This document shows positions 3,292 to 56,971 of a DNA stretch of 64,000 nt, piece by piece (the first letter of the stretch is position 1; the number at the start of each line of letters is the position of its first letter). The notes beneath the pieces are model-generated. The model did no database searches. It was not told where the DNA came from and saw nothing but the letters and a program-made list of their open reading frames with translations. This DNA is from Microvirga arvi (GTDB lineage Bacteria > Pseudomonadota > Alphaproteobacteria > Rhizobiales > Beijerinckiaceae). Where the stretch lies: NCBI RefSeq assembly GCF_016892765.1, contig NZ_JAFEMD010000008.1, positions 62,001 through 126,000 on the forward strand, in the 5' to 3' direction. A program made the translations under genes and the position numbers.

Positions 3292-3368
3292 CGCCACTTT
3301 AAGCGTCTCGTTGCTTGCATGAATTGCACGGCCGCGAATCTGCGCGGCCGAACTGGAGCAGTGAGACA

Positions 3369-10511: not shown

Positions 10512-10535
10512 TGGTCGGAGCGAGAGGATTTGAAC
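10512..10535 (-). pseudogene. 3' part of the interrupted host tRNA-Pro(GGG)
   Basis: Read on the minus strand this gives GTTCA, then the rest of the T-loop, T-stem CCTCT, acceptor CGCTCCG, discriminator A and CCA. The acceptor strand is the exact complement of CGGAGCG at 24774-24780. Joined to the 5' part at 24722-24780 through the shared GTTCA it rebuilds a perfect 78-nt tRNA-Pro. It is therefore the left flank of an insertion, not a random tRNA-like sequence. Confidence 0.92.
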
Positions 10536-10544
10536 TTTATATGC
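10531..10544. repeat. Left attachment site (attL core)
   Basis: TGAAC (10531-10535), a single T, then TTATATGC (10537-10544). The first part belongs to the tRNA T-loop and the second is the element arm. It mirrors the right end. Confidence 0.85.
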
Positions 10545-10568
10545 GGTGCGTCTGTTCAGTGTGTATGT

Positions 10569-10832
10569 TCATTGGCCGCTTGTCCTTGACGACTCCTGCC
10601 CAGCCCCCGCCTGGGAAGAGGCAAGCTGCGAATCAGGGACCGACGCGGAACCCGGCGGGAGCGCGGGGCTCCACGGTTCGCTTCTTCCAAACTCGGCATG
10701 AACCTCATGATCTTTGATCCGGATCTTGAAGAGGCGGAGCCGGAACATCGCGATCCCAAGCAGCACGACAATGGCGAGCAGCAAGAGAGGTGACCAGTTC
10801 GCCTCAACCAGTTTCACCGCTACTTCAGCCAT
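10569..10832 (-). CDS. Small single-pass membrane protein, unknown function
   Basis: The 87-residue product has a short N-terminus (MAEVAVKLVEANW), one clear membrane segment (SPLLLLAIVVLLGIAMFRLRLF, about residues 14-35), a basic stop-transfer region and a Pro/Ser-rich polar tail. Its ATG at 10832 lies inside the end of the upstream MerR-like gene, with an 8-nt overlap, so the two are translationally coupled. I recognise no family. The pairing suggests that the membrane protein works with, or senses for, the regulator. It is the leftmost gene of the island, about 25 bp from the element arm. Confidence 0.6.
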   Translation of the reverse strand: MAEVAVKLVEANWSPLLLLAIVVLLGIAMFRLRLFKIRIKDHEVHAEFGRSEPWSPALPPGSASVPDSQLASSQAGAGQESSRTSGQ

Positions 10833-11436
10833 GGTTGTCCTCCGAAGCGTCGTCACGGTGGTGAACTCTTGTCCTGTACGGAGCCCGTGGCAGGGCCGCG
10901 ATCAGGCGGTTGGCGGCCAGCTTGCAGTCGAAGATGACCTTCACCGGTTCGGGGCCGATTTCCTCGGCAGGAGCCTCATCGAGAACGGCCAGGCTATCGA
11001 CGCGATACAGCTGTTGCCCACTGACCACCACGAAGCGGCCAATCCGGTGCCCTGGGCTTGTTCCGACAAGAGGACCGGTCGCGCCTCCCCACCGTGAGGC
11101 ACTTGCCTCCGCAGCGAAGTGGAGCATCGGAAGGCGACACATGTGAGCCGCCGTTTCCGCGTTGAAAAGGTCATCCTTCGTCAGCGGTCGAGGCTGCCCA
11201 GGCTCTTCAGAAGATGCCGCGGTAAGGCGCTTGATGCGGAGGCCGGCGTCCGAAAACGACTTCAGCGCCATCATCTCGCACAGGTCGTCGAAGGTGAAAC
11301 GGGAGTGCTGTCCAGCCGGGCCGGCGCGCCCGATGATCCCCCGGCGGCGCCAATCGCGCTGCAACGCCGTGGACACTCCAGTCGCATCGCTAGCCTCGGC
11401 CGGGGAATACTCCTCCTGCTCCCTCGTAATGATCAT
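10825..11436 (-). CDS. MerR-like transcriptional regulator
   Basis: The 203-residue protein has an N-terminal MerR-type winged helix (EYSPAEASDATGVSTALQRDWRRRGII, then FTFDDLCEMMALKSFSDAGL) and a C-terminal region of about 110 residues with no recognised ligand domain and no MerR metal cysteines. I start at ATG 11436 because AGGTG sits 6 nt upstream, and because the predicted promoter puts the transcript start near 11468, downstream of the GTG at 11472. ATG 11442 is the other option. The promoter carries two copies of a palindromic operator, suggesting autoregulation. It is coupled to the small membrane protein by an 8-nt overlap. Confidence 0.7.
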   Translation of the reverse strand: MIITREQEEYSPAEASDATGVSTALQRDWRRRGIIGRAGPAGQHSRFTFDDLCEMMALKSFSDAGLRIKRLTAASSEEPGQPRPLTKDDLFNAETAAHMCRLPMLHFAAEASASRWGGATGPLVGTSPGHRIGRFVVVSGQQLYRVDSLAVLDEAPAEEIGPEPVKVIFDCKLAANRLIAALPRAPYRTRVHHRDDASEDNHG

Positions 11437-11456
11437 TCCCATCACCTGAATCCAAT

Positions 11457-11512
11457 CCGTGAGAACTCTCACGGTATGTAATCACGGCCATGAACCGTGT
11501 CAACTCCCACGG
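11457..11512 (-). promoter_or_regulatory. Promoter with twin operators for the MerR-like gene
   Basis: On the minus strand TTGACA (11503-11498), a 17-bp spacer and TACATA (11480-11475) form a sigma-70-like promoter. Two copies of an 18-bp near-palindrome lie 38 bp apart: CCGTGGGAGTTGACACGG (11512-11495) covers the -35, and CCGTGAGAGTTCTCACGG (11474-11457) covers the start site. They match at 15 of 18 positions. The layout fits repression by the downstream regulator. Confidence 0.7.
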
Positions 11513-11870
11513 TATCGGTTCGCAGGGTTTCTTGCTCAGGGCTCACCAGGGATCAGGCCCGCCTGATCCGCTCCACCCCCGTCACGGCTCTTTCCCTGGC
11601 GCAGCCGTGCTCGCCGGCAAGGGCCGCTCCTTCGTCGCTCTACGCCCTTGCCGGCTGTGCGCGTCAGCGCTGGCGGGACGCCGCGACGGCGGCTCCGGGG
11701 ATCAGGCTCAGTTGACCCCGAATACGGACGGGACGTCCGGGGCAACAAAGGTCCCGAGGCGGCAAGGGCTTATTCCACGGGCTGTGGGCGCAAGGGTCTC
11801 CTCGCACTGAAGGAGGACCTTGTAAAATCTGGTCAGTTGCGATTCGGAAGCCAGCGCCCCGCAGCTCTCC
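11513..11870. other. Non-coding stretch between divergent island genes
   Basis: I see no supported gene here. A short perfect hairpin GGATCAGG-CCCG-CCTGATCC lies at 11550-11569. AAGGAGGAC at about 11810-11818 resembles a ribosome-binding site but leads straight into TTG TAA, so it starts nothing. The stretch should contain the promoter of the KAP gene. Confidence 0.5.
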
Positions 11871-11891
11871 TTGCTGGCCGCAAAGAACCTC

Positions 11892-14141
11892 ATGACCTCC
11901 CTGCACGCCGACAGTCCCATCACGCACAAGGAAGAAGACCGGCTCCATTACCACCCATTCGCCCGTGCTTTAGCCAAAGGCATCGTCGAGCGGGCCCCAA
12001 GCGACGGCTTCGTTATCGGGGTGCAGGCGCAGTGGGGCATGGGCAAGAGCAGCGCCATCAACCTCGCCCTGGAGGCCATCGACGAGTTGGAGAGAGGCAA
12101 GGAGCCTCGCCAGAAAGTCAAAGTCCAAACGTTCAACCCCTGGCTGTTCTCCGGTCTTGAAGCTCTCGCCCGTGGCTATCTCTCGCAGCTGGGGCGCGTC
12201 ATCGATGAAACCCTCGAACAGGGTACGCCACAGGCGACCCGCAAATTCGTCGAGCGCATGATCAAAGGCGGCGCCGAGGTGGCCGGCGGGCTCGCCGCCT
12301 TGGGCGCCGTGGCTGTCACGGGCGGCGCCGCGGTCGGCCCCATTGCCACGGCCGTCAAATCGACAGTCACTGGCGCGCTCAACCTCGGCGCGCACTACAT
12401 CGACACGCGCTCACTCGACGGCATGGTCAACGACCTCAAGGAGCATCTCGCCAAGATCGACACCAAGCTGCTCGTGATCGTTGACGACCTTGATCGCCTC
12501 CAGCCCGACGAGGTTCGGCAGGTCCTCACGCTGGTGAAGACCTTCGGCAACCTACCGAATGTCATCCACCTCCTTGTTTACGACCGGGACATCGTGGACC
12601 GCGCCTTGGGCACGTCGCAGGCCAGAGAGGACGAGGCGCGGACGCTGCCAACGTTCCTGGAAAAGATCGTGCAGGTCGAGCTCGACCTACCGCCGCCGAG
12701 CAGCACCGGCCTCCGGGGGATGACCGTTGACCGGCTCACCACGATCCTTGGCCCCAATCCGCCCATGTCCCAAGAGCATTGGTGGACGGTTTCGCACGTC
12801 GCATTCAAGCATTACCTCACGTCTCCCCGGGACGTCATCAGGCTCTGCAACGCGCTTTCGGTGGCATGGCCGGGAGTATCCGGGGAGGTCTATGTTCCCG
12901 ATTTCGTCGGCATTGAATTGATCCGCCATTTCGAGGATCGGACCTACGAACTTCTCAGGGACAACAAGGCGTTCCTGACGGGCGTCGGTGGGCCGATTGG
13001 CGACCAACCCCGCGAGGAGCTGGCTGGGAGGATCAGGGACAGCATTCCGGAAGGACGGCGCGGCGACGTCATCGATCTCTTGGTGCAGATGTTTCCACAG
13101 GTCAATGATCTGCTGAAGCCGAGATCCTGGGGCGGCCGCGGGCAGGCCCCTTCCGGCTCCGGCCGACGGATCGGGGCGCACCGGGGGTTCGACGCCTACT
13201 TCCGGTTCGCTCCTGCTCCAGACGAGATCACCGTCGAGGAATTGCGGACGCTTGAGGAACGTTTGACAGATGCCGATTTCCTCAAAGCTTCGATCCAAGG
13301 TGCGATGGGCCGTCGACGTGCCGCGGACGGCCTATCCTATGCTGCGCCTTTGCTGGAGGAGTTGCGCGCCATCGTGCGCCGGAAGGACAGCCTTGACCCG
13401 GGTTTGTTCAATGTTCTCCTGGAGCTGGGTGATGACCTGATCGCTCTGCACGATGAGGTCGAAGACTTCCACACGATTGTCAATCGTGAGCGGCTTGTAT
13501 GGCTTCTTGAAGATGTCGTGGGCCGCCTGCCGGAGGACACCCGGTTTGGTGTAGCCTCTGCGGCTATCGCCGGTCCAACGGCTGGGTTGCATACGGCTGC
13601 CACGCTGGTTTTCGAGCTTGCCCGCCCCTTCAATCTGCCTTGGGCTGGCCAAAGCGATGATGATGGGCAACCACTCCTGACACTTGACCAGGTAGAGCAA
13701 CTCGGACGGAGCCTGGTCGCGCGCATCGATGCCGCGGCCGAAGACGGAACGCTTGCCACCCGCCCGCAGATCGACCTCGTTCTACGCGTCTGGGCTGCGT
13801 TTGCCGGACCAGCCACGCCCCGTGGGTGGGTTGCCTCAAAACTTGGAGAACCCGGGGCCCTCCTCGACATCGTATTTGGGGAGATGGCGAACATATCCTC
13901 ATCCGCACCACCCTACCGCTACAGGCAGCTTCAGAGGCTGCCTAATGCGGAAGTTTTTGATGTGGAGGCGATGATCGCGGCGCTTGAGGAGCACATGGCG
14001 GAGGGGCGGATTGACAATGATGCGCGCCCTGACGTCGAGCGCTTCATCAATCGGGCCAGACGGTTTCTGGGAGGACAGGTTCCAGCGCAGATTGAAACCA
14101 TAGTTGATGACGAAGATGCCGACGATGACGCAACAGGGTGA
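11892..14141 (+). CDS. KAP family P-loop NTPase
   Basis: The 749-residue protein has Walker A GVQAQWGMGKSS near residue 45 and Walker B KLLVIVDDLDRL near residue 195. A Gly/Ala-rich hydrophobic segment lies between them (GGLAALGAVAVTGGAAVGPIATA). That insertion between the Walker motifs is the hallmark of KAP NTPases, which are membrane-associated STAND-like ATPases; the F-plasmid phage-exclusion protein PifA is a known member. The rest is helical, with an acidic C-terminus (DDEDADDDATG). I start at ATG 11892; a TTG at 11871 would add seven residues, and neither has a strong ribosome-binding site. It is the only plus-strand gene in the island and converges on the helicase. A defence role is inference from family and context. 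Confidence 0.82.
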   Translation: MTSLHADSPITHKEEDRLHYHPFARALAKGIVERAPSDGFVIGVQAQWGMGKSSAINLALEAIDELERGKEPRQKVKVQTFNPWLFSGLEALARGYLSQLGRVIDETLEQGTPQATRKFVERMIKGGAEVAGGLAALGAVAVTGGAAVGPIATAVKSTVTGALNLGAHYIDTRSLDGMVNDLKEHLAKIDTKLLVIVDDLDRLQPDEVRQVLTLVKTFGNLPNVIHLLVYDRDIVDRALGTSQAREDEARTLPTFLEKIVQVELDLPPPSSTGLRGMTVDRLTTILGPNPPMSQEHWWTVSHVAFKHYLTSPRDVIRLCNALSVAWPGVSGEVYVPDFVGIELIRHFEDRTYELLRDNKAFLTGVGGPIGDQPREELAGRIRDSIPEGRRGDVIDLLVQMFPQVNDLLKPRSWGGRGQAPSGSGRRIGAHRGFDAYFRFAPAPDEITVEELRTLEERLTDADFLKASIQGAMGRRRAADGLSYAAPLLEELRAIVRRKDSLDPGLFNVLLELGDDLIALHDEVEDFHTIVNRERLVWLLEDVVGRLPEDTRFGVASAAIAGPTAGLHTAATLVFELARPFNLPWAGQSDDDGQPLLTLDQVEQLGRSLVARIDAAAEDGTLATRPQIDLVLRVWAAFAGPATPRGWVASKLGEPGALLDIVFGEMANISSSAPPYRYRQLQRLPNAEVFDVEAMIAALEEHMAEGRIDNDARPDVERFINRARRFLGGQVPAQIETIVDDEDADDDATG

Positions 14142-14264
14142 GCCGGGCGTGGCAGGTTAATGTCTGGCGAGAGGAGGAGTGCCGTTATTGATTTCCTTGG
14201 GTCGAAAACGCTCGGAATGAGGCGGCAGCCATTCGTGTGATGATGGTCGGCGACCACTCACTCC

Positions 14265-16529
14265 CTACGCCGACGGCATTGGAGGCCATCTGAAGCCCAC
14301 CTTACGGGCTTCGGACGCCCACGGACGGGTCAGGGCAATCTGGATCGCCTCTGGATCCCCGATCAGTACGACCTGCTTCTCGGCCCGCGTGATGGCCGTG
14401 TAGAGCCAAGCCGGATTGAGAAGTACCGTGCGGTAGACCGGCACGATGATGCGCTCGGCTTGTGAGCCTTGGCACTTGTGGCAGGTGACCGCGTAGGCCA
14501 GCGCGATGTCGATCAGGCTCCCCTCGGACGCGTCCGGATCCGAAGGTCCCTCGGCCGAGAACGTGATCTCCCGCTCATCGAACCGAGCCACGACCCGACG
14601 GGCGCGCTCGTCGGCGGAGACGACCCGGCCCATGCTACCGTTAAAGAGGGCGAGGCTGTAGTCGTTCCGGAGGTGGATGCACGGGTCGCCCGAGCTGAAC
14701 CACTCGCCCAAATGCCCTTTCACGCAGGCGAGGTTCTCTTCATCCACGCGCCTTCTCTGAAACAGCCGGTTGAGGGTTGAGACGCCGGCTGGACCTTCGT
14801 TGGTGGCGGTGACGATCAGAAGATCTGAGCCTTCGAAGCCGCCGAGGTCCGAGGCGACCTTTTCGACGGTGGCGGCGATCTCATCCACGCCTGCCTCAAC
14901 AAGGGAGACGCCATCGGCCAACCCGGCATACGGCGAGAAGGCCGGCCAGGCCCGATTGCGGATGGCCGCGGCCACAGCCGGGATCCCCGATGCCTCCGTC
15001 TGCCGGTGCACGACCGTGAGACGGGCCGTGATGGCTGGATCCTCAACAAGCCGATGGTAGACGAGGCCGAAGGAAATTGGAGGCAGCTGCGCGTCGTCGC
15101 CCACGAGCAATAGCTTGGCGGTCTCAGGGACGTGCTGAAGCAGCCTGTAGAGGGTCGAAAGGTCGACCATGCTCGCTTCGTCGATCACGAGGAGCGTCCT
15201 GTCCTCAAGCGCCGCCAGATCTTTCAGAGCAGCCTCGATCTCCCGCACTCGGCCCGGCTCCGCATCATGGATCTCGGCCTCCAGCTTCCGGCGCTGCTCC
15301 AGTTCGGCGAGCAGCCGGGCGAGCGTCTTAGCCAGCCGCCCCGAGGCCCGGCTCAGGCGCAGGCTCGCCTTCCCGGACAAGGCGGTGAGGACGACCGAGC
15401 CGCCGAGGGCCTCCCAGGCCGCGCAGATCACCTTGGTCGTATAGCTCTTGCCGACCCCGGCGCCGCCCTGGAGGCAGGCGACCGGGTTTGCCAAGATGCG
15501 GAGGACGGCCAATATCTGTTCCGGGTGCAGGGATCCGGTTTCGACCAGACTCCCCTTCTGGAACGCCTTCAGCTCGCTCCGGGAGGGCATCGCGCCGGCG
15601 GCCTGGATCCTGGCCAGCATCGCCGAGACAGCGTCCTCCATGAGGGCGCATCCGGGGAACCGGAAGCCGTCCTCGTCGGGGAGCACCGCGCCGTTCCGGA
15701 CGCCGGCCTCGACAGCCGTCGAGACAAGCTCCCCGTCTGGGGTGGCTCCGAGCCGCTTCGCGACTTCCGCCCTCAGGGCGTCGGGGTCGATCATGGTATG
15801 CCCGCCCTCGGCGATCCGCGCCTTCACCACCGCATCCACCGCCCCAACCAGTCGGCGGCGGTCGCTGCGCGGATCCGTGATGCCGGCCTCCCCCAGAACC
15901 CTTCTCCCAAGGAGGTCGACCTTGGGCCATTCGGCCAGTGCAACCAGGCTGTAGGGGTTCGCCTCCAAGTGAGCGACCGCATCCGAGCCCAAGATCCGCA
16001 TCAGGCGCCTGGCGAAGCGGAGGCTGTCGACGCCGCGGGCGTCCAGCCACTCGACCGTTGCCACCTCCGCGGCGGCTTGTTTCCAAGCGCCCACGGCCAT
16101 GGCAGCCAGCCGGAGCGCCATGACGGGCCGGTCACCGTCCAGGGCGGCCGCGATCCGGGGCACGTTCTCCTCGCTGCTCAGGATGGCGCCGAGATCGTGC
16201 CCGTCCTCCGCGAAGGCGGCCCAGAGCCGCCGGGCGCGCTCCGGGCCGATCCCGGGCACCTGGCCGGCGATGAAGTCCTGGATGAGGCGGCCTGAGGATT
16301 TCCGGCGGATGCACCGGGAGGCCTCCATCTGCTCCCCATACTTGCTTGTCTGGAAATCGCCCTCGACCTCCCAGAGCTCGCCTATTGATGGGACGCCAGG
16401 CAGAACCTTGGACAGAGCACGGATCCTGATGCGCGTGCCATGCCGTGGATGCTCCTCGTCCTCGACGGTACCGGAGAAGATGCAGCCGATGGCGTTCTCG
16501 CTGACGATCCGCTGGACGACCACCCGCAT
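14265..16529 (-). CDS. RecD2-like SF1B DNA helicase
   Basis: The 754-residue protein has an N-terminal OB-like and helix-hairpin region (QVPGIGPERARRLWAAF), then a superfamily 1B motor: Walker A GGAGVGKSYT near residue 355, DEAS box LLVIDEASMVD, motif III VGDDAQLPPI, and C-terminal motifs VTCHKCQGSQ and WLYTAITRAEKQVVLIGD. This is the RecD2 architecture (5'-3' helicase working without RecB and RecC). The start codon overlaps the stop of the upstream 155-residue gene by one base (TGATG), so it is the sixth gene of the recombinase operon. That coupling suggests a role in processing or replicating the excised element. Confidence 0.85.
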   Translation of the reverse strand: MRVVVQRIVSENAIGCIFSGTVEDEEHPRHGTRIRIRALSKVLPGVPSIGELWEVEGDFQTSKYGEQMEASRCIRRKSSGRLIQDFIAGQVPGIGPERARRLWAAFAEDGHDLGAILSSEENVPRIAAALDGDRPVMALRLAAMAVGAWKQAAAEVATVEWLDARGVDSLRFARRLMRILGSDAVAHLEANPYSLVALAEWPKVDLLGRRVLGEAGITDPRSDRRRLVGAVDAVVKARIAEGGHTMIDPDALRAEVAKRLGATPDGELVSTAVEAGVRNGAVLPDEDGFRFPGCALMEDAVSAMLARIQAAGAMPSRSELKAFQKGSLVETGSLHPEQILAVLRILANPVACLQGGAGVGKSYTTKVICAAWEALGGSVVLTALSGKASLRLSRASGRLAKTLARLLAELEQRRKLEAEIHDAEPGRVREIEAALKDLAALEDRTLLVIDEASMVDLSTLYRLLQHVPETAKLLLVGDDAQLPPISFGLVYHRLVEDPAITARLTVVHRQTEASGIPAVAAAIRNRAWPAFSPYAGLADGVSLVEAGVDEIAATVEKVASDLGGFEGSDLLIVTATNEGPAGVSTLNRLFQRRRVDEENLACVKGHLGEWFSSGDPCIHLRNDYSLALFNGSMGRVVSADERARRVVARFDEREITFSAEGPSDPDASEGSLIDIALAYAVTCHKCQGSQAERIIVPVYRTVLLNPAWLYTAITRAEKQVVLIGDPEAIQIALTRPWASEARKVGFRWPPMPSA

Positions 16530-16996
16530 CAGGTGACATCCCCCGTGCGGACGACCATCCCTGTCTCCTGAAGCAGGCGAAGCTGCTCGGTCAGGGACAG
16601 GATCTGGAGGCGTTGGCGCTCGATCACCGCCTCGCGTTCCGCCAAAAGGCGGGCGTGGTCGTCACGCTCGCCCTGGGCTCGGACGAGGCGGTCTTTGACG
16701 GCCTTGTCGGCCACGTCGGACAACGCCCGGCTTCCGATGGGCTTTACGCCCTGGCGGGCGGCGATGGCGTTCACGAGCGCGGCCAGGGACGGCTTCTTGT
16801 AGAAATGTTGCTCTTGGGCTCGCGGCAACCCACAGACCGTTACGGCGAGCTCCCGGACATTGACCTTGCCGTCATCGGTCAGCGGCAGGGTCGGGCGACG
16901 GTTGCCCTCAGGCTGGGCATGCCACCGAGCATCGAGTTCTTCGAGCTTCTCCGAGACCAGCGGCTCCAGCGTTTCCAGGATGGACCGACGCGCCAT
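16529..16996 (-). CDS. Small coiled-coil protein of the recombinase operon (155 aa)
   Basis: The product has an N-terminal globular part with a helix-turn-helix-like stretch (KVNVRELAVTVCGLPRAQEQHFYKKPSLAALVNAIAARQG, written here only by its ends) at about residues 43-85 and a C-terminal coiled coil (about 105-148) rich in Glu, Arg, Leu and Gln. It resembles TnpC-type accessory DNA-binding proteins of multi-recombinase elements in layout, not by any alignment I can make. Its start and stop each overlap the neighbouring genes by a single base (TGATG), so it is tightly coupled. Function is unknown; a targeting or synapsis factor is plausible. Confidence 0.6.
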   Translation of the reverse strand: MARRSILETLEPLVSEKLEELDARWHAQPEGNRRPTLPLTDDGKVNVRELAVTVCGLPRAQEQHFYKKPSLAALVNAIAARQGVKPIGSRALSDVADKAVKDRLVRAQGERDDHARLLAEREAVIERQRLQILSLTEQLRLLQETGMVVRTGDVT

Positions 16997-17508
16997 CAGT
17001 TCTCATCTCCTTTATCGCGTACCACGGTGCTCCGACCGACGATCTGGTTCGGATGCGACCGGCGCAATTCGATGAGTTTCCCTTTGCGCCCAGCCTTGGC
17101 GAGCTTCTTCTGCAAGTCCCAGGCCACGTTGATCGCATCCTGCAGCCTCGTTGCCAGCACGGCTTTCTCGGATTTCAGGATTGCGTTCTCCCGGCGCAGG
17201 TCGCCGATGATCTCCCGTGCATGCTTGCGGGGCGCTTTCGGATTTTCATTGACCACGGCAACTTCCGCTGCCGCTAACACCTCGGCACGGATCTGGGGGT
17301 AAGCGCACTTGTTCGAACCGATGAGGGTGCGGCTGCGGCGGGCCTCCTTCGCAACGGTCGCAACATTGATGCGCAGTTTTCCTTCCTCCTTCAGCTTTCG
17401 GAGATCAGGATGGATCGGGCTGCCCCTCCTCAGCCGGTTGAGGGCGTCAAGAAGATCTCGGGCTGCGTCGTCCGACTTGGCAATCGGGCTCTCAGGAAGA
17501 CGCGGCAT
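16996..17508 (-). CDS. Small TnpC-like coiled-coil protein of the recombinase operon (170 aa)
   Basis: This protein has a probable DNA-binding N-terminal half (DLLDALNRLRRGSPIHPDL, then LRINVATVAKEARRSRTLIG, about residues 20-65) and a C-terminal coiled coil from about residue 95 (REIIGDLRRENAILKSEKAV). The layout matches small accessory proteins of tyrosine-recombinase transposons such as TnpC of Tn554. I start at ATG 17508, which has GGAGG 5 nt upstream and overlaps the third recombinase by 17 nt. Its stop overlaps the next gene by one base. It and the 155-residue protein share the same plan and may be a pair. Confidence 0.62.
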   Translation of the reverse strand: MPRLPESPIAKSDDAARDLLDALNRLRRGSPIHPDLRKLKEEGKLRINVATVAKEARRSRTLIGSNKCAYPQIRAEVLAAAEVAVVNENPKAPRKHAREIIGDLRRENAILKSEKAVLATRLQDAINVAWDLQKKLAKAGRKGKLIELRRSHPNQIVGRSTVVRDKGDEN

Positions 17509-19585
17509 GCTCCCTCCGGTTTCTCTTGGTTCCACTGATCATGCTCAGCCTTCTCAGGATGGTCTCTGAGGTGCGGACGCGTTCGGCCGCCACAGCCGCC
17601 GCAGCCCTATCTCCTGCGGCGAGGTTTTCGGTGTGCAGGACGATGTTGTCGGCGTGTCGCTTGGCCCAGAAATCGACGTGGACCTCGGAGATGAGGAGGT
17701 TGGAGCAGCTGCAGCACACGTTTGGCTGCCGTTGACCATAATGAGGCTGCCTTGCCTGTAGGTCGAAATCGCCCTTGGCCTGGTGATGGCAGCGGGCCGT
17801 CTCCGCCCGGAACAGACACTTGCCCCAATCCGCGGGCCATACCCGGACATCATCATCCCTGAGGGTTTCGGCCAGACGTTCGATCTTTTGCTCGTCAGTG
17901 CCCTCGCTGCCGATGAGAGCCTGGATTTGTAGGGCTTGGGCTTCGACCTTTTCGGCCATCTTTCCGGCAAACGCCGCCGTGTCGTTGATGGCCTCGAACA
18001 GGAACCGGGCAGCTTCGCGGGTGGCGACGTCGTTCATGACGCCCAAGAGCGCCGCGTCATTGCCGAGATAGCCCTGCTCAGTCATGGCCAGGGACATGTG
18101 CTTGAAATGGTCCGAGACCGCCGGCAGAAGCCTCCCGTCGGAGCCGACGATGTAGAGGCAGAAGGACTTGCGCCACTGGTGCGTCGTCAAGTTCCAGGAC
18201 TGGTAACCTGCCGGCAGGTTCACAAAGTGTCGAACGAACTCCTTCTGACCATCACGGAGGCTGTCACTCAGGATCCGGCTCACGTTGCCGTTGCTTCGTG
18301 GCATGCCTTGGGACTGGCCTAGGGTCACGATCAGGTCATCGGTCTCGCCTAGGGGTCGCCAAGGGGCATAGAGATTCTGAAGTACAGCGAGCGCTCGGAC
18401 GGGTGGGGGCACATACTCCGTTCCGGCTGGACGGGATCCCGCCACCCACTCCACCTCGTCCCACTGATCCCGCTGCTTGAACAGGCGGCCCTTGATATAG
18501 AAAATCTCATTCAACCCGCTCAGAGAAGGGCGCACCTCGATGCAACTCGGCCAAGCACCAGGGTGGTGTGCGGCTCCAGCCTTCAGGCCCGCTATCTCGC
18601 TGATCCGAAGACCGACCAAGCCTTGCACAACGATCACGCAGGCATCCCGCAGGTCTTGGATCAGCCGCCGGTACCGCTGCAGGGGCGCTCTCTTTCTGTC
18701 GACGGTTCCCAGTTTGACAAACCAGCGCGTTTCGGAGCCATCGGCCAAGCCGGGGTGCCATGGACGGCCAAGAGAACCACCATCGTCGAACCGGAAGCGC
18801 TCCAAGACCTTGTTCAGGTGATAGCTGTAAGAGTTCGACCGGTTCTGTTGCGACCGCTCATTCGCGGAGGCGAACTGCTCTCCCAAGCGCGCAAGGTCCC
18901 GGGCTGGGGCCTCTAACCAGGAAAGAGCTTCGCTCATCACGGCGGTGAAGACGGGATCCGGAACGGGAGGGATGAACCCGGCAACCTTGCGGGACAATTC
19001 ATCGGCTACCTCCTGGGCCGCGCGGCCGCCAAACGGGTGCCGTCGCATCACAGCCGCCGGGTCGCTTGCGAAGAGCGGGGACTGCTCATGGATGCGGACA
19101 AGGACATCGAGATACCGAGCCAACGTCTCAGCCGTTATGCCTTCGTCATCGTCGCTCGCCGCCTTTTCGCGCGCGAGATGGTCGCAGAACTCCTCCGCGG
19201 CGTCTTCGTCCAATTCGGCAAACGTCCGGTAGCCTTCCAGCGCCATCCAGCGCAGGAGATACCTCACGCCGGTAAACAGGCTGCCCAGGCCGGTGTCCTT
19301 GGGGTTCTTTCCCCGCTGACTGTCGACCCGAATGGACCAGAGCAGACGTCTGCCGAGTTCGAGCAGTTCACTCCATTGGGCGTCGGTCGACATGCTCCCG
19401 TCGAACATCTCGAAGCTCCAGATGAGCGCGATGTCCTTCTTGCCGGCAGTGGTGGATTTGAACCGCCAAATTGGTTCGCCCCAGAGACTGAGGTCGGAAA
19501 CAGGTCTGCTCGCGGCATCCCCCGGCGTCAGCAGATGGAGGGTTCGTTCGGTAAGGCGGGCTGATCGTGTGGCCATGGCGGTCAT
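17492..19585 (-). CDS. Tyrosine recombinase 3 of the island, with C-terminal Cys-rich tail
   Basis: The 697-residue protein keeps the tyrosine-recombinase residues: Arg in GLVGLRISEIAGL, His-x-x-Arg in THQWRKSF, a later His in DHFKHMS and the nucleophile Tyr in TEQGYLG. Unusually, about 180 residues follow the Tyr, including helices and a Cys/His cluster (CLFRAETARCHHQ, VCCSCSNL) that could bind zinc. I start at ATG 19585, which overlaps the stop of recombinase 2 in ATGA; a further ATG lies nine bases on. The end overlaps the TnpC-like gene by 17 nt. It is larger than classic integrases and probably acts with recombinases 1 and 2 in a joint complex. Confidence 0.75.
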   Translation of the reverse strand: MTAMATRSARLTERTLHLLTPGDAASRPVSDLSLWGEPIWRFKSTTAGKKDIALIWSFEMFDGSMSTDAQWSELLELGRRLLWSIRVDSQRGKNPKDTGLGSLFTGVRYLLRWMALEGYRTFAELDEDAAEEFCDHLAREKAASDDDEGITAETLARYLDVLVRIHEQSPLFASDPAAVMRRHPFGGRAAQEVADELSRKVAGFIPPVPDPVFTAVMSEALSWLEAPARDLARLGEQFASANERSQQNRSNSYSYHLNKVLERFRFDDGGSLGRPWHPGLADGSETRWFVKLGTVDRKRAPLQRYRRLIQDLRDACVIVVQGLVGLRISEIAGLKAGAAHHPGAWPSCIEVRPSLSGLNEIFYIKGRLFKQRDQWDEVEWVAGSRPAGTEYVPPPVRALAVLQNLYAPWRPLGETDDLIVTLGQSQGMPRSNGNVSRILSDSLRDGQKEFVRHFVNLPAGYQSWNLTTHQWRKSFCLYIVGSDGRLLPAVSDHFKHMSLAMTEQGYLGNDAALLGVMNDVATREAARFLFEAINDTAAFAGKMAEKVEAQALQIQALIGSEGTDEQKIERLAETLRDDDVRVWPADWGKCLFRAETARCHHQAKGDFDLQARQPHYGQRQPNVCCSCSNLLISEVHVDFWAKRHADNIVLHTENLAAGDRAAAAVAAERVRTSETILRRLSMISGTKRNRREHAASS

Positions 19586-21498
19586 TCGAGCGGAGGGATG
19601 GGCGGCAAGGTGATGGCGGCCGCCGCGCCGGCAGCACCTGGTGCGAACGCGGGCAGCCAAACCTCGTCCAAGGCGGCGAGCTGCGGCTTCCAAACCTCCA
19701 GCCAACGGGTCGGAGCGACTTGGGTCCTGGCCTCCTCAATTTTCTGGCGAAGCTGCTGAAGGCGTATGAATGCCTTGGGATCCTGCGCATTGACCCAGGC
19801 TAGCGGGCAACCTGGACATGCTCCGTAGGCCGAGCACAGCTTGCCCTCGACTTGGCCCGGGATGGGCGAGAAGCTAGGTTCAAAGCACCCGAAGCCCGGC
19901 GTGGCGGCTGAGTTCATCCCGGGGGACAGTCCTCCGCCCCGAGTGTCCGCTCGCCCTCCGGTGGTTATGAAACGTTCACGCCACGCCATTGCCTGCGCCA
20001 TGGCCTCCCTGGCGCGTTGCTTTGCGGGGCCGGATTGGTAACTGCGGTCCGTAGTCGTGGTGCTGGCATGCCCAAGGGCAACCTGCTGCGCCTTGATGTC
20101 TCCGCCCGTTATCTGGTGGACCAGGTCAGAACCAGTCGCCCGCAGCTGGGAAAGGGTAAAGGGGGGTAGCCGATGGTCTTCGATGAAGCGTTGGAGAGCG
20201 CCTTTCCAGGCCTGATCCCCCGCCGCGCTGCGGTCGTCCTCAAAACCGGAGAAGGGTTCACCGCGCATATGCCAGAACAGGAACACTCTGTCTCGATGCT
20301 CCAGCGGAACCAAGGGGCGCGTGATTGTGCTATACTGTTCCAATGCCTTTAGGAGCATGACCGGGCTTTCCGGCGCCGTCACGGCCGCGGCGAATGACCG
20401 GTAGTGGACCCGTCCGGCTCGCCTCTTCTGCGCGCCGATGCGCCACCGGTCCTTTCCGTAGATCGGATGGTCACGCTCGATCTCCGACCAGCGGAGGGTC
20501 AGCAGCCCCTGCGCATTGAAGGATCCATCGATGGCGAGAAGGACCGCGAAGGGAACAAGCGACCTTGGCGTGAAGTGCAGGTGAGCGCCTGTTTCGGACA
20601 GCAGGCCGTAGGGAGCCGTCATCGACCGGGCGAGACCGGGATCGCTCCGAGCGAGTTCATCGCGCTGTAGTATCCGGCCACCATAGCGCGCGAGTATTGT
20701 TTTCAGGCGCACCCGTAGCTCCCCGAAAGCGCCGGGTTCCGCGGTTCCCTTGGCGGGTACAAGGATGCTTTGGTCGGCCGCGACCTCCGCCCCAATCTTG
20801 AGCTTGCCAATGATCTCGGGAAGCTCCCCGATGCAGGCCTTCCTGATGCTGGCCAAGTCCAACGCCGACAGCGCCTCCCGCGATTTAACGACGAGGTGGC
20901 GTCCCGGCCAGGGATTTCGGCGGAATTTCAGGTTGGCATGGACCTGCGCCTTGAACGCGCGGGATCCGTAGCAATGTTTCATGAATTCCCGCAGCGCGTT
21001 ATAGCGCTGGGCCTTGGTGTTCGGCGACCAAGGTGATCCTTCCTTTTCTCTATCTGACGGTTTGGAGCGCTGCTGGTCCAGCCAGGCCTGGTACTCATTG
21101 ATGACCTCCGTCGAGATGTCACCAAGGCCCCTGACCGGGGACAGGCCCATGTCGTCCCGGAAATCCAAGTAGGTCCGAAAGATCCTCAACGCCTCACTGA
21201 CCTTCTCCCGCCTGCCAGCGACCACATGGGCCCCCCATGAGGCCAAGTAGTCTGCGACCGCCAGCGCCAGCGGGCGCCGGCTGAGCCAAGCTGTGAGATC
21301 GATCTCGTGAAAGCCTGGGCGGGAGGGCTCATTCTTCAGCCGCACGATCAGGGACTGGTCTGTCTCGATCACGCCGAACGCACGTCCAACCTCGGCCAGG
21401 TGGCGAACATTGGACTCCCCGGCAACCGACGGACGCCGCGTCAGGTGCGCTCCGAGGGGACGCTTCCCCTCCCTCGCGATGGGCTTAGGGGGCTTCAT
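19582..21498 (-). CDS. Tyrosine recombinase-like protein 2, catalytically degenerate
   Basis: The 638-residue protein is similar in size to TnpB of Tn554. It has a recombinase C-terminal fold, but active-site positions are changed. The first Arg box reads IDGSFNAQGLLTLRWSE, where most members have TGLRxxEL, and the His-x-x-Arg box reads SQLRATGSDL with Ser for His. The later LGHASTTTTDRSY keeps the His and Tyr. A Cys-containing tail (CSAYGACPGCPLA) follows. Loss of the first Arg should impair cleavage, so it may be a structural partner of recombinases 1 and 3. ATG 21498 lies inside recombinase 1 with a 14-nt overlap, and the end overlaps recombinase 3 in ATGA. Confidence 0.7.
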   Translation of the reverse strand: MKPPKPIAREGKRPLGAHLTRRPSVAGESNVRHLAEVGRAFGVIETDQSLIVRLKNEPSRPGFHEIDLTAWLSRRPLALAVADYLASWGAHVVAGRREKVSEALRIFRTYLDFRDDMGLSPVRGLGDISTEVINEYQAWLDQQRSKPSDREKEGSPWSPNTKAQRYNALREFMKHCYGSRAFKAQVHANLKFRRNPWPGRHLVVKSREALSALDLASIRKACIGELPEIIGKLKIGAEVAADQSILVPAKGTAEPGAFGELRVRLKTILARYGGRILQRDELARSDPGLARSMTAPYGLLSETGAHLHFTPRSLVPFAVLLAIDGSFNAQGLLTLRWSEIERDHPIYGKDRWRIGAQKRRAGRVHYRSFAAAVTAPESPVMLLKALEQYSTITRPLVPLEHRDRVFLFWHMRGEPFSGFEDDRSAAGDQAWKGALQRFIEDHRLPPFTLSQLRATGSDLVHQITGGDIKAQQVALGHASTTTTDRSYQSGPAKQRAREAMAQAMAWRERFITTGGRADTRGGGLSPGMNSAATPGFGCFEPSFSPIPGQVEGKLCSAYGACPGCPLAWVNAQDPKAFIRLQQLRQKIEEARTQVAPTRWLEVWKPQLAALDEVWLPAFAPGAAGAAAAITLPPIPPLE

Positions 21499-22948
21499 CC
21501 AACTGTCTCTTGAGCGCGTGGGCAAAATCGTCGGAAATCTTCGGCTCAGCCACGTTGACGTGGCGACCATAGATGTCCGTGGTGGTGCTGAGGTGTTTGT
21601 GCCCAAGGAGGGCCTGTAGCTTCTTCCAAGGTGACGGATTGCCCGCCCGGATCTGACCCCAGTAGAACTGGACGGCGAACGTGTGCCTCAAGTCGTGAAA
21701 GGTGTGCTTGGGGACCCGGATGGGCTTCAGGATCGGCCTATCTGTCTCGGGATCGACTGCTGGCGCACCCGTTTCCGGGTCGATCTCATATCCTTCCAAG
21801 ACCCTCATGAGCCCGCACCGGCGCACGGCCTTTGTGAAGGCGCGCATCGCGGTCGCCTCTGAGATTGCCTCGCCCACGTCGCGCCTCGACGATGTCACGC
21901 CGTTGACGAACAGAGCGCTCGGCTCGCGCCCGGATCTGAACTTCCCGCGATTGCGGGCGTCCTCCATCGACTGGTTGCGCTCGCCGTCAATGTAGGCAAG
22001 GAGAGATGCCACAAGGAACGAGTACATCGCGACCGTTCGAGCAGCGTTCCCCTTCGTGACGGTGATCGTCAAAGGGATGGTCTTCCAACGGTCCTTCGGA
22101 TCGACCTCGTGCCGAAGGTCCAGGATCTGGTAGACCGTCAGCTTGCAGACCTCCTCCACGCGCATGCCGGTGAAAAGGGACGTTTCGGCGATCAGGCGAT
22201 CCCGGACCGGGCGCTTGTCATTGTTGTCGGGGGTGCCCGGCGCCGGACCGAGAGCGGCTAGGATCGTCCGCAGGTTGCCGATGCTGATCGGATCAACGTC
22301 TTCGTCGGCCTGACGCGAGTGCCTGGAGCTCCTCTGGCGTCCGTTGGTCTTCCCCCCGACATGCGGCAACATTCGCCTGTCCAGATAGAAGTGTCCCTTT
22401 TCTGCGGGATCACCTGCGATGGGGTCAGCGACGAGCTTCTGTCGGTGGGCCCATCGGTAGAACTCGTTGATGGTGCCAATCCGGCGTTCGATGGTCGCCG
22501 GGGCGAACTCCCTTGATGTCTTGACCGAGACGCCTTGCGTCAGAGCTTCTCTGAAGGCTTCGATGTCTTCGTTCGTGACCTCGTCCCAAGCCAGTTTGCT
22601 GAAGTGGAGGTACGTCCACCATTGGGCCAGATCGTCTGCGTAGGACTTCTGAGTGTTGTGCTGCTTGTAGCCCTTGCAACGGTCGATGAGAAAGAGGTTG
22701 GCAGGCTCGACTGGGTGGAAGGTGGCCGTGAAGAGCAGCACGAAGCCTTGGCGGGTTCTCCTACCGTTGATGAGTTCCGGCGGGAAATCGGGCGTCGTCT
22801 GGTAGGCGACGGCTCGGATCCTGTGAATGACAGCGGCGTTTGTGTGAGTTTCGTCCAAGGCCAACCTCGAATTCAAGACCGAGGTTGTCCGAAGGCCTTC
22901 ACTCCTTGGCCCTGTAATACACGCCCCTTCGCTTGCTTCGAGCAACAC
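21485..22948 (-). CDS. Tyrosine recombinase 1 (site-specific integrase)
   Basis: This 487-residue protein has a SAM-like core-binding domain (about residues 95-175) and a complete catalytic domain: Arg in TGMRVEEVCKL, HDLRHTF, LGHKHLSTT and the nucleophile Tyr in DIYGRHV. It is the first gene of the six-gene operon and corresponds in position to TnpA of Tn554. The exact start is uncertain: the first frame start (22948) is a GTG, and no candidate start has a convincing ribosome-binding site. The 137-bp gap upstream should hold the operon promoter, though I see no clear -35 and -10 pair. Confidence 0.85.
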   Translation of the reverse strand: MLLEASEGACITGPRSEGLRTTSVLNSRLALDETHTNAAVIHRIRAVAYQTTPDFPPELINGRRTRQGFVLLFTATFHPVEPANLFLIDRCKGYKQHNTQKSYADDLAQWWTYLHFSKLAWDEVTNEDIEAFREALTQGVSVKTSREFAPATIERRIGTINEFYRWAHRQKLVADPIAGDPAEKGHFYLDRRMLPHVGGKTNGRQRSSRHSRQADEDVDPISIGNLRTILAALGPAPGTPDNNDKRPVRDRLIAETSLFTGMRVEEVCKLTVYQILDLRHEVDPKDRWKTIPLTITVTKGNAARTVAMYSFLVASLLAYIDGERNQSMEDARNRGKFRSGREPSALFVNGVTSSRRDVGEAISEATAMRAFTKAVRRCGLMRVLEGYEIDPETGAPAVDPETDRPILKPIRVPKHTFHDLRHTFAVQFYWGQIRAGNPSPWKKLQALLGHKHLSTTTDIYGRHVNVAEPKISDDFAHALKRQLDEAP

Positions 22949-23085
22949 TGACTCGACTCCGTTGAGAAAACGCTAACAAAGGTCGCCCTTCGCCCCAGAA
23001 GGTCACCTCCATGGGGCGTGAGTTATACGTTCCGGTGCGCCGCCCCGCTGTCTTGCGCGGGGGCAGGTTCAGGATGGATTTGCGG

Positions 23086-24099
23086 CTAGTACCTCAGTCG
23101 GCCCGAGCCGCCTCCATCGGGGGCCGCAAGTTCCCTGAGGTGCTCCATGGCCAGTTTCATGCTGTGGGTGAAGCCATCCTCCCAGTGCTCGTGGATGATC
23201 TCGCTGGTGGCCTCCGCGCGGTCCCACGCGGCGGCATGTGCATCCTCTCGGTCGTCGCTCAGGACAGGCGTGAGAAGGGAGAAGGTTCGCGGATCAACCG
23301 CCTGCAGGGCGACGAGGCTTCCATCACGTCCGATGGCGACGGCTTCAACCGGCTGGAGCTCTAAGGCCTCTTCGAAGGCACGGCGGACGCCTCGGGGGAG
23401 ATCCTGGGCCTCCAGTCGCGCCTCGACGGCGGTTCGGTTGATGAGGTCGAGGGTGGATCCGTCCTCGCACTGGAGACGGAAATGCCCTGGCCCCAACTCA
23501 TCGAGCCCAACATCGGCATGCTTCGGCATGAACAGGCTCCCGACACTCAGCGCGAAGCCAATGTCGATGTGAACGCCATCCCTCACGTACAGCACGGGGC
23601 CCATGTCGTCCCGGAGAACCCGCGGCGGCACCATGATCCTGGATTTGGCTTCGTACGCGATGAGGGCATTGGCTCCGAGCAGACTCAGTGGGCCGTCTCG
23701 ACAGAGGAGCCCGCGAGCCCAGAGATTGCGCAACCCTTCAACCTGACGAGCCGGAATACGACCCAAGCGCAGCGCCTTCGCGACCCGACCGGCATCCTCA
23801 ACCTCGGGCGCAAGGGCCGCGAGCCCCGCCTGCACCTCGCTGCGCAGGCGCATGAAGTCGGCGTACATCTGTTCGGTTTCAGCGGAGCGGCGGCCAAGTG
23901 AGCGAGCGGTCTTCTTCCCAGTCTCCGGGTCAGGACGGTAGCGGGTGAGGTACTCATATCCGGCCGCAGGCTTCCACTGCATGCCCCCGACAATCTGGTC
24001 GCGTTGGCGCAGGAGCTGGCCGTATCGGGTCCATAAGGCGTTCACAACCTCCATGTGAAGGCGCTGTTCCCGAGACATCAGGATGAGGTTGATTGCCAT
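23086..24099 (-). CDS. Divergent GSU2403-type nucleotidyltransferase-fold protein
   Basis: The 337-residue protein has an N-terminal segment (WTRYGQLLRQ, GGMQWKPAAGYEYLTRY, LGRRSAETEQMYADF) that I associate with the GSU2403 nucleotidyltransferase-fold family, followed by the expected LGANALIAYEAKSRI. The Asp pair that should bind metal soon after that motif is not obvious: RDDMGPVLYVRDGVHIDIGF has acidic residues but no clear DxD. It may be inactive or the assignment may be wrong. It lies upstream of the recombinase operon on the same strand, separated by 137 bp, and next to the right end of the island. Such genes are often accessory cargo; related folds occur in AbiEii-type toxins. Confidence 0.5.
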   Translation of the reverse strand: MAINLILMSREQRLHMEVVNALWTRYGQLLRQRDQIVGGMQWKPAAGYEYLTRYRPDPETGKKTARSLGRRSAETEQMYADFMRLRSEVQAGLAALAPEVEDAGRVAKALRLGRIPARQVEGLRNLWARGLLCRDGPLSLLGANALIAYEAKSRIMVPPRVLRDDMGPVLYVRDGVHIDIGFALSVGSLFMPKHADVGLDELGPGHFRLQCEDGSTLDLINRTAVEARLEAQDLPRGVRRAFEEALELQPVEAVAIGRDGSLVALQAVDPRTFSLLTPVLSDDREDAHAAAWDRAEATSEIIHEHWEDGFTHSMKLAMEHLRELAAPDGGGSGRLRY

Positions 24100-24607
24100 G
24101 CCCTAGCTACCATTGTTTCCAACTTGAGTTCGAAACTAGGGATTTTGGTATCAAAAACCAGATGACTCAGCCGTAAGGGGTAGGGATGCTGCTCTCGGGC
24201 ACAGGTTCGATCCCTGGGCGGTTATGTCCGCCCAATATCTCCAGGTTGCAGGGCAAAGGCTTTGAGGACCATCGCAAGAACGAGTTGGATTGTGGTGGTC
24301 AGCGCAGGCCTAAGGGCGGCTTCGTGGGCCACCTATGGCCGCGGAGAGTGTCCAGTCCCTTCAGCAATCGGCTGGCTCCGGTGAACAGCCGCTTTTTCCG
24401 GAATGCCTTACAGCGCAGAGGTTTGACGCCGACTGAACAGTGCAAAACAATGCTTGATAAGATGCCACCTTGGTGCGCTCCTTGCGTCTTTCACGAAGGC
24501 GACTGCGCAAGCTGCGCCAGGAACGAAGGGAGGCCGGAACGCGAACATTCCGGCCTCCTGCAGAGCGGGCGAAACAAGCTAAGTGCTTGAAATCGCTTAG
24601 GAATTTT
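24100..24607. other. Gene-free right end of the island
   Basis: No reading frame here is convincing. The stretch holds a hairpin (24529-24558) that may terminate the replacement tRNA, and at 24202-24216 a short T-arm-like motif (CAGG-TTCGATC-CCTG) without any surrounding cloverleaf. Confidence 0.5.
24529..24558 (-). terminator. Hairpin downstream of the island tRNA-Pro
   Basis: GGAGGCCGGAA (24529-24539) and TTCCGGCCTCC (24548-24558) form a perfect 11-bp stem with an 8-nt loop, 50 nt past the CCA end of the tRNA on the minus strand. The T tract is poor (CTTCGTT), so it may be a processing or Rho-independent-like signal. Confidence 0.5.
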
Positions 24608-24685
24608 TGGTCGGGCAGAGAGGATTCGAACCTCCGACCCCAAGTCCCCCAGACTTGTGCGCTAACCTGGCTGCGCTACTGCCCG
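24608..24685 (-). tRNA. Island-borne tRNA-Pro (anticodon GGG)
   Basis: This complete 78-nt cloverleaf has acceptor CGGGCAG paired with CTGCCCG, D-arm GCGC/GCGC, anticodon stem CAAGT/ACTTG around CTGGGGG (anticodon GGG), T-loop TTCGAAT and encoded CCA (24610-24608). It differs from the interrupted host gene in the acceptor stem, the anticodon stem and the T-loop, so it is not a simple duplication. It lies 36 bp inside the right junction and in the same orientation, so a transcript from the old host promoter would run through the broken 5' part into this gene. Confidence 0.94.
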
Positions 24686-24713
24686 TCACATCCGCTCTGA
24701 ACACCTCACCAAC

Positions 24714-24726
24714 GCATATAATGAAC
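24714..24726. repeat. Right attachment site (attR core)
   Basis: GCATATAA (24714-24721) followed by TGAAC (24722-24726). The arm is the inverse of TTATATGC at the left end, and TGAAC is the shared crossover sequence, belonging to the tRNA T-loop. Confidence 0.85.
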
Positions 24727-24780
24727 CTCCGACCCCTAGTCCCCCAGACTAGTGCGCTAACCGGGCTGCGCTACGCTCCG
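24722..24780 (-). pseudogene. 5' part of the interrupted host tRNA-Pro(GGG)
   Basis: Read on the minus strand: acceptor CGGAGCG (24780-24774), D-arm, anticodon stem CTAGT/ACTAG around CTGGGGG, variable loop, T-stem GGAGG, then GTTCA where the tRNA stops and element sequence begins. It cannot form a T-arm or acceptor stem by itself. The missing 3' part lies at 10512-10535. A weak candidate promoter upstream on the minus strand is TTGCAC (24829-24824) with TAATTG (24806-24801). Confidence 0.92.
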
Positions 24781-24881
24781 ACGCCTTGAACGGCTTGTGT
24801 CAATTAGCTCCGGCAGTTGCCGTGTGCAACCCCTGAAATTCACTTTGGCCATCAAACTCGCCAAAACGTGGGAGAGGGGGT

Positions 24882-25304
24882 CTAGCGTACAAGAGGCGAC
24901 TTTGCGATGCGAACCCGTGCTGTGGTGGGGCCTGCCACATTGATCCGGGCCGCCTCGAAGGAGGGCGGGGCGGTGCGGCCGGTGCCATTGCTGAAGCCGT
25001 AGGGTTCCTGCGGCAGGCCTTTAGGATCGCGGTCGAGGCTGTTGTTGCCGTTGAGATCCTGGAACACGGCGATGGCATAGGAGCCTTCCGCCACCTCAGG
25101 AAACACGATCCGGAACTCCTCCGCCGGAGATTGTACGGTCTGGCTGTATCGGCACGAGCCAAAATCCAGGGAGCCCAAGCATATGCCAACCATCACGGCT
25201 CCCTTTCCCGGGCTGGCGCCTTCCACCTGAACGGTGAGGGGGGCCGCCTGCGCTGCGCTCAAGATGAGCAGGGCGGCGAGCAGTCCGGTGATCGTCCGAA
25301 GCAT
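24882..25304 (-). CDS. DUF2141 domain secreted protein
   Basis: The 140-residue product has a Sec signal peptide (MLRTITGLLAALLILSAAQA) and one beta-rich DUF2141 domain: LTVQVEGASPGKGAVMVGI, then YAIAVFQDLNGNNSLDRDPKGLPQEPYGFSNG. The DLNGNNSLD stretch looks like a calcium-binding-type loop. Function of the family is unknown; the protein is probably periplasmic. It is the first host gene right of the island and stands alone on the minus strand. Confidence 0.85.
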   Translation of the reverse strand: MLRTITGLLAALLILSAAQAAPLTVQVEGASPGKGAVMVGICLGSLDFGSCRYSQTVQSPAEEFRIVFPEVAEGSYAIAVFQDLNGNNSLDRDPKGLPQEPYGFSNGTGRTAPPSFEAARINVAGPTTARVRIAKSPLVR

Positions 25305-56885: not shown

Positions 56886-56945
56886 ATGAGCCAGAGCCTT
56901 TTCAGCCTCCGACGCCGAATGAATGCCGCCCCGGCGCGCGTGTGA
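56886..56945 (+). CDS. Arginine leader peptide (argC leader)
   Basis: The 19-codon frame reads MSQSLFSLRRRMNAAPARV and ends at TGA 56943-56945. Four of 19 residues are Arg, three in a row. No ribosome-binding site precedes it, and the predicted transcript starts at its ATG, so it would be translated leaderless, as is known for the trp leader trpL of Sinorhizobium meliloti. Its stop lies 26 nt before the terminator stem. Confidence 0.75.
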   Translation: MSQSLFSLRRRMNAAPARV

Positions 56946-56971
56946 GGACGGCTGTCTGATAGCCTGAACGC

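Follow-up and report, generated by a model that had tools for sequence, protein, structure and literature searches.

Genomic islands with three integrases (GInts) carry a ginABCD operon, make 6-nt staggered cuts and have imperfect att repeats (Bardaji et al. 2017, PMC5385486). Their insertion sites are given there as protein genes or intergenic regions, and the word tRNA does not occur in the main text. Islands often have tRNA genes as their targets, and the rule for these in the Islander description (PMC4383910) is that sequence of the island restores the split tRNA gene. Several tyrosine recombinases accompanied by a small accessory protein are also characteristic of strand-biased circularizing integrative elements (SEs), RIT and Tn554-type elements (PMC10214605); SEs have a 6-bp footprint, and the main text of that paper does not contain the word tRNA either. 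Tycheposons, in turn, are described as islands bordered by a tRNA gene and provided with a tyrosine recombinase (PMC10872708). In this study we describe a site-specific 14.2-kb island of Microvirga arvi that splits the tRNA-Pro(GGG) gene of its host and carries an intact tRNA-Pro(GGG) gene of its own. It is located in one 150-kb contig and was analyzed within a window of 64,000 nt (GCF_016892765.1, NZ_JAFEMD010000008.1, positions 62,001 to 126,000); the positions given below are those of the window. Judging by its sequence, the island seems to be of a known kind, the GInt, and the whole tRNA-Pro(GGG) replacement next to the split target appears to be new.

The tRNA genes and the ends of the island are located as follows.

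10512–10535, minus strand: displaced 3' part of the host tRNA-Pro(GGG) gene, from the T-loop to CCA; host side of attL, abutting the other flank in congeners
10536–10559, plus strand: left terminal inverted repeat, TTTATATGCGGTGCGTCTGTTCAG read inward
24608–24685, minus strand: intact island tRNA-Pro(GGG), called by ARAGORN; 10 of its 78 nt differ from the host gene
24697–24721, minus strand: right terminal inverted repeat, TTATATGCGTTGGTGAGGTGTTCAG read inward, within the 36-nt spacer between the broken 5' half and the intact tRNA
24722–24780, minus strand: 5' part of the host tRNA-Pro(GGG) gene, 59 nt, ending with GGTTCA; host side of attR
24802–24829, minus strand: putative host promoter, TTGCAC-16-CTAATT, in the DNA upstream of the 5' half

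The initial annotation of this DNA had placed two parts of a tRNA-Pro on the minus strand at the island ends and proposed that, when joined, they make a 78-nt tRNA with all stems paired. Both parts are as described there, and joining them at the shared TGAAC/GTTCA produced a single perfect tRNA-Pro(ggg) of 78 nt with encoded CCA in the ARAGORN output, whereas neither half taken with its own flank was called as a tRNA. The claim that a site-specific island truly interrupts the gene within its T-loop, with no duplicated 3' end, also holds, as the 5' half runs into the TTATAYG sequence of the element end.

The split is not a chance resemblance of two fragments, because congeners have intact tRNA-Pro(GGG) genes of exactly the joined sequence. 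Identity was observed for 20 of the 29 congener tRNA-Pro loci compared (a subset, 46 other genomes having a match); eight of the other nine share one T-stem variant, and one has another. The 3.3–3.4-kb loci around the closest DUF2141 homologues contain an intact tRNA-Pro(GGG) in nine cases out of ten, with no tRNA in L015 (labels with L and G denote loci and genomes, respectively); eight of these genes are identical to the joined one, and L016 has a T-stem variant. In a blastn comparison of 39 congener loci, some of them from the same genome twice, matches of the left flank ending at 10535 and matches of the right flank starting at 24727–24730 join exactly or with an offset of at most 3 nt in 30 cases, many of which align on one side over the tRNA only. 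At six loci (L008, L009, L010, L012, L013 and L014) the right match extends through the DUF2141 gene to about 26490–26500, and on the left there are matches to gene DNA at 8.2–9.8 kb as well. Hence, the flanks are contiguous in congeners and an empty site exists, which confirms the split of the host tRNA-Pro(GGG) gene. The initial annotation had expected the continuous gene to lie between a GFA-family gene and a DUF2141 gene. The continuous gene is there, but not this pair of neighbors: the two never flank the tRNA within one congener locus of about 3 kb. The GFA side was seen in L043 only (without DUF2141 in the locus) and the DUF2141 side in L008–L010, L012–L014 and L016; in L007 and L011 the tRNA is inverted relative to DUF2141.

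A different element of a congener, with a single integrase, was observed at L152 (G201:C21, 1838–2950 and about 2991–3033), where it adjoins a 5' part of tRNA-Pro(GGG) cut near the anticodon loop. The gene therefore appears to be a target of at least two integrase types.

It had also been stated that the host copy cannot work. The host gene is indeed interrupted, but the implied loss of tRNA-Pro(GGG) overlooks the complete island copy 36 nt away. This copy scores 61.2 bits in Rfam, with the gathering score of 29 bits, and its changes relative to the host gene include paired ones in the acceptor stem and in one pair of the anticodon stem. A search with the tRNA-Pro(GGG) pattern gave matches in 46 of the 47 other genomes of the genus (none in G234), one in each except for G201 with two; the own genome has, apart from the broken 5' half, no copy other than that of the island. 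The island copy is the sole Pro(ggg) among the 47 tRNAs called by ARAGORN in the window and stretches of the own genome, Pro(tgg) and Pro(cgg) being present (from 55 Rfam tRNA matches in this genome, the set omits six of class II length, and two were not called by ARAGORN). Since a complete tRNA-Pro(GGG) lies in the same orientation as the broken 5' half and on the side of the host promoter, the function is probably replaced by the island copy.

The source of this tRNA was sought in several databases. Its 51-nt 5' pattern had no match at up to three mismatches in 384 other genomes of the class. The same CGGGCAG acceptor stem in a 78-nt tRNA-Pro(GGG) with 4–7 differences was found in two other families of the order, and blastn against plasmids and phages yielded identities of only 76–82% among the matches listed, the plasmid tally having one record at 90–95%. 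At L164 (G428) the first 27 nt or so after tRNA-Pro(GGG) resemble the trailer of the island tRNA (TTCCTAAG.GATTTCAA), which is a possible clue to the source.

The same layout, comprising a cut host gene, its 5' half, an element end and an intact tRNA-Pro(GGG), occurs in four other genomes (G902, G903, G904 and G1007). Pieces of tRNA-Pro 3' ends with the same T-loop cut were found in L076 (Brucella tritici) and L078 (Rhizobium sp. Leaf453), in both at the element end next to ginA, and the tRNA-Pro 3' half of L077 is about 1 kb outside the fetched locus. When the three closest relatives were searched for tRNA genes, each genome was seen to have an intact tRNA immediately preceded by a weak partial one; in these genomes and in G1007, a 5' half ending with GGTTCG is followed by a TTATACG end, a 45–49-nt spacer and an intact tRNA-Pro(GGG). 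Application of the attR pattern to 199 genomes of the family of G903 retrieved G903 and G1007 with this layout. The 3' halves abut element ends in all five genomes, and joined halves were called as tRNA-Pro(ggg) in all four cases tried (the window, G903, G1007 and G904), the B. tritici pieces being outside this set. In B. tritici, both ends are on one contig of 57,102 bases, with the 5' half at 36895–36958 and the intact tRNA at 36998–37071 according to Rfam, and the 3' half at about 56924–56948; the island is about 20 kb long, and the gin genes lie toward its 3'-half end. The sole Pro(ggg) among 43 tRNAs of the fetched G903 stretches is the carried copy.

Read inward, each of the ten element ends of these islands begins with TTATA(T/C)G, and at the five 3'-half ends the letter before it is T or C. 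In nine of the ten, TGTTCA follows after 9–13 nt; the 3'-side end of B. tritici has TGTGCA instead. The orientation of the gin genes varies: in G902, G903 and G904 ginA lies closest to the 3' half, whereas in the window the operon is read toward that half, as it is, judged from ginD alone, in G1007. In spite of this, the carried tRNA is on the side of the 5' half in all five cases, 36–49 nt further in; at the 3'-half ends ARAGORN found no tRNA in the surrounding DNA examined. The islands of the window and B. tritici both have the CGGGCAG acceptor stem, and both hosts have CGGAGCG. The islands of G903 and G1007 contain the same tRNA, although the 5' halves of the hosts differ by one base. The carried tRNA thus seems to travel with the element.

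The attL TTTGAACTTTA and attR TAATGAACCTC have TGAAC in common and otherwise near matches only, forming short imperfect direct repeats. The reconstructed circular junction, attI, is CGCATATAA-TGAACT-TTATATGCG, a perfect 9-6-9 palindrome, which agrees with the staggered cuts of 6 nt described for GInts. Neither a search of relatives for CGCATATAA ahead of ginA nor a palindrome scan of that region was informative. The combined end motif was found in L076, L078, L080 and L112 and had no matches in reversed sequence. In L080 (Massilia aquatica, 7862) and L112 (Microvirga massiliensis, 7507), ends of the TTATAYG...TGTTCA type precede the ginA match by about 570–580 nt, and no tRNA fragment was found next to them.

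The remaining part of the island consists of the gin operon and cargo genes.

10569–10856, minus strand: cargo, open reading frame (ORF) of 95 amino acids (aa), no family match
10825–11472, minus strand: cargo, MerR-type helix-turn-helix protein, 215 aa (PF13411, 22.7 bits, cut-off 21.6)
11871–14141, plus strand: cargo, KAP P-loop nucleoside triphosphatase (NTPase), candidate phage defence (PF07693, 1.8e-45; PADLOC PifA model, 5e-85)
14265–16529, minus strand: cargo, RecD2-like SF1B helicase (NCBIfam equivalog, 299.8 bits, below the cut-off of 500)
16529–16996, minus strand: 155-aa ORF between ginD and the helicase gene, no family match over the cut-off
16996–17535, minus strand: ginD-like, 179 aa; a ginD match was found in 32 of 37 genome loci
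17492–19705, minus strand: ginC-like, 737 aa, 44% to L076; used for the tree
19582–21606, minus strand: ginB-like, 674 aa, by homology to relatives; used for the tree
21485–22948, minus strand: ginA, tyrosine recombinase, 487 aa (PF00589, 4.3e-15; boxes GMRVEE / HDLRH / LGH...Y)
23086–24099, minus strand: cargo between ginA and attR, NTP_transf_8-type nucleotidyltransferase, 337 aa (PF12281, 3.8e-07)

The PifA-like KAP NTPase beside the RecD2-like helicase is a candidate anti-phage cargo. Compared with the published description, the island is a GInt-type element in its ginABCD gene order (three tyrosine-recombinase-like proteins and GinD), in the tyrosine-recombinase boxes of GinA (R, HxxR, H and Y, all present) and in the overlap of about 6 nt. 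Site-specific insertion and imperfect att repeats are further common features. Unlike the GInts of the main text of PMC5385486, this island has the T-loop of a tRNA as its target, carries a whole tRNA, ends with inverted repeats and has 1.8 kb with one gene and the tRNA between ginA and its end. In GInts the gin operon bounds one end of the island and the cargo follows ginD. This is so in L076 and L078, where ginA is within about 0.8 kb of the element end, while in the L077 element 9.6 kb separate them. The SEs, RIT and Tn554-type elements have different gene sets, the distinction being based on their description in PMC10214605; the likeness to tycheposons likewise comes from their description. 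Classical tyrosine-integrase islands in tRNA genes, as far as the Islander description covers them, resemble this island in the T-loop crossover, the 3' fragment at one end and the intact tRNA near the other. They differ in that here the intact tRNA is a separate whole gene and the dead 5' half stays; no element-borne 3' segment regenerates the target at the junction. In the open-access literature, as represented by titles and beginnings of abstracts and with several result sets incomplete, no element was found with a whole replacement tRNA beside the gene it splits.

Matches to all four gin genes were found in 30 of 37 loci from genome contigs, in order and on one strand in 29 of them (in L110 ginD is on the opposite strand). 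A ginD match was lacking in L085, L087, L098, L100 and L111, and a ginA match, in L101 and L106. Two of three plasmid loci, from Methylomonas and Sphingobium, have all four genes (L067 is without ginD). The Methylomonas locus (L066, 12350–12362 and 18391–18403) is a nearly cargo-free ginABCD element between traU and traN, with GTGAACTGTTCAC and GTGAACAGTTCAG near its sides. Viral contigs contained no ginB relative; the attR pattern occurred in five of them, with no tRNA in the DNA examined there. Searches with GinB of the window alone gave matches in 4 of 199 genomes of the family, 5 of 297 of the order and 3 of 385 of the class, the own genome included, thus few and distant relatives. In the maximum-likelihood tree of GinB (41 rows), L076, L077 and L078 fall into a single group with the window (supports 99/97). 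The window, L076 and L078 are also grouped in the GinC tree (40 rows, 98/95); L077, with an in-frame stop in its ginC frame, is absent from this tree. GinB identity across the tRNA-carrying elements is about a third.

The proposed mechanism is as follows. The element would target the T-loop of tRNA-Pro(GGG), and recombination over an overlap of about 6 nt between attI (CGCATATAA-TGAACT-TTATATGCG) and attB (...GGATT-TGAACC-TCC...) would split the host gene. We infer that both sides of attI are recombinase half-sites, in which case the junction could not regenerate the 3' end of the tRNA. With such sites flanking the crossover, the element would be unable to mimic a tRNA 3' end, and it would therefore carry a whole tRNA instead. 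Placed 36–49 nt inside the end of the 5' half, the carried tRNA would be downstream of the host tRNA promoter, which could drive a single transcript running through the dead 5' half into the carried tRNA, ordinary tRNA processing then probably cutting the tRNA out. The TTGCAC and CTAATT boxes at a distance of 16 nt are the same in six of nine congener loci, with one change in L016 and different sequences in L007 and L011; in other hosts, TTGCG and TATA-rich stretches are seen by eye upstream of the 5' half. By precise excision the host gene would become whole again, leaving the circle junction CGCATATAATGAACTTTATATGCG. The loss of tRNA-Pro(GGG) may be tolerable, as in enteric bacteria. Hence, the benefit of the carried copy may be in the speed and accuracy of translation rather than in survival.

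We consider it highly probable that a Hyphomicrobiales clade of GInt-type elements splits tRNA-Pro(GGG) and carries a whole replacement placed for a captured host promoter, from which it would be expressed. It is rather probable, if less so, that the clade swaps a whole host translation gene, a tRNA-Pro(GGG) cassette without an obvious promoter capturing that of the destroyed gene and becoming the only copy of the cell. Several observations weigh against the former interpretation. A simple σ70 scan of 22900–25000 found no minus-strand promoter, host or island, the spacer included, and in the minimum-energy RNA fold of the leader with the tRNA the dead 5' half pairs with the intact tRNA, with no clean tRNA fold. 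By blastn, no tRNA-Pro piece was found in the DNA fetched for 35 of 37 GInt-type loci. Both attL and attR are on one contig in the window and B. tritici only; in G903, G904 and G1007 they are on different contigs, and therefore continuity is assumed there. In G1007 the only gin gene beside attL is ginD (L202, G1007:C65), and L077 has the in-frame stop in ginC (11702–13819), so this copy may be inactive. The reversed-pattern controls gave one match each, in G1000 for the 5'-half search and in G902 for the 3'-half search. Finally, the host 5' half of G903 equals the island copy over 58 nt, and the carried tRNA of G903 may have arisen by duplication from the host.

Two further observations concern G1007 and G903. 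The ginD match of L202 is at 3132–3433, with no detectable ginC in the preceding 3.1 kb. We had also considered that G57 (GTTCGA) in the carried tRNA, as opposed to A57 in the host, confers immunity to re-targeting; the difference fits the window and, with letters reversed, L185, and the idea was dropped, since the host half and the island copy of G903 share the T-arm.

The carried tRNA could instead be a passenger, caught by chance at an earlier host site and having no rescue function. The capture of DNA of related bacteria reported for GInts (PMC5385486) agrees with that, as does the presence of tRNA-Pro(GGG) with the CGGGCAG stem in two other families of the order. Against it, the carried tRNA is of the same isoacceptor as the destroyed gene, in the same orientation and at 36–49 nt on the promoter side, in five cases out of five and in elements with such diverged GinB; we regard this explanation as improbable. 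Still less probable is that tRNA-Pro(GGG) is dispensable because tRNA-Pro(UGG) reads all proline codons, the carried tRNA being, for example, a variant that escapes a toxin or a phage. Wide codon reading by tRNA-Pro(UGG) is known from enteric bacteria, and the own genome has both tRNA-Pro(tgg) and tRNA-Pro(cgg). The nucleotidyltransferase and the PifA-like NTPase of the cargo would be in line with such a role; however, the former has no match in other GInt-type loci at E 1e-4, and the tRNA of the G903 island, identical to the host 5' half, is no special variant.

An ordinary tRNA-targeting island, with the 3' end restored by a duplicated segment, would share with this one the T-loop crossover, a known subsite, and the 3' fragment marking the far end (Islander, PMC4383910). 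It is already contradicted by the host 5' half, which in all five cases continues into TTATAYG and not into a tRNA 3' half, and is thus very improbable. The chance of an assembly artefact is negligible: the genome is a draft of 229 contigs, but the element is contiguous in a 150-kb contig, congeners have empty sites, and the layout recurs in other assemblies.

If the proposed replacement is correct, these elements represent a repeated second solution to tRNA targeting, namely, whole-gene substitution on the side of the host promoter as opposed to restoration of the 3' end. This would account for the use of a tRNA gene by a multi-recombinase element whose crossover has half-sites on either side. 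Island finders that rely on an intact tRNA paired with a 3' fragment could mistake these elements for cases of ordinary restoration. Horizontal replacement of tRNA genes becomes directly testable; tRNA genes would then be swapped horizontally, and the swap could persist after the decay of the element.

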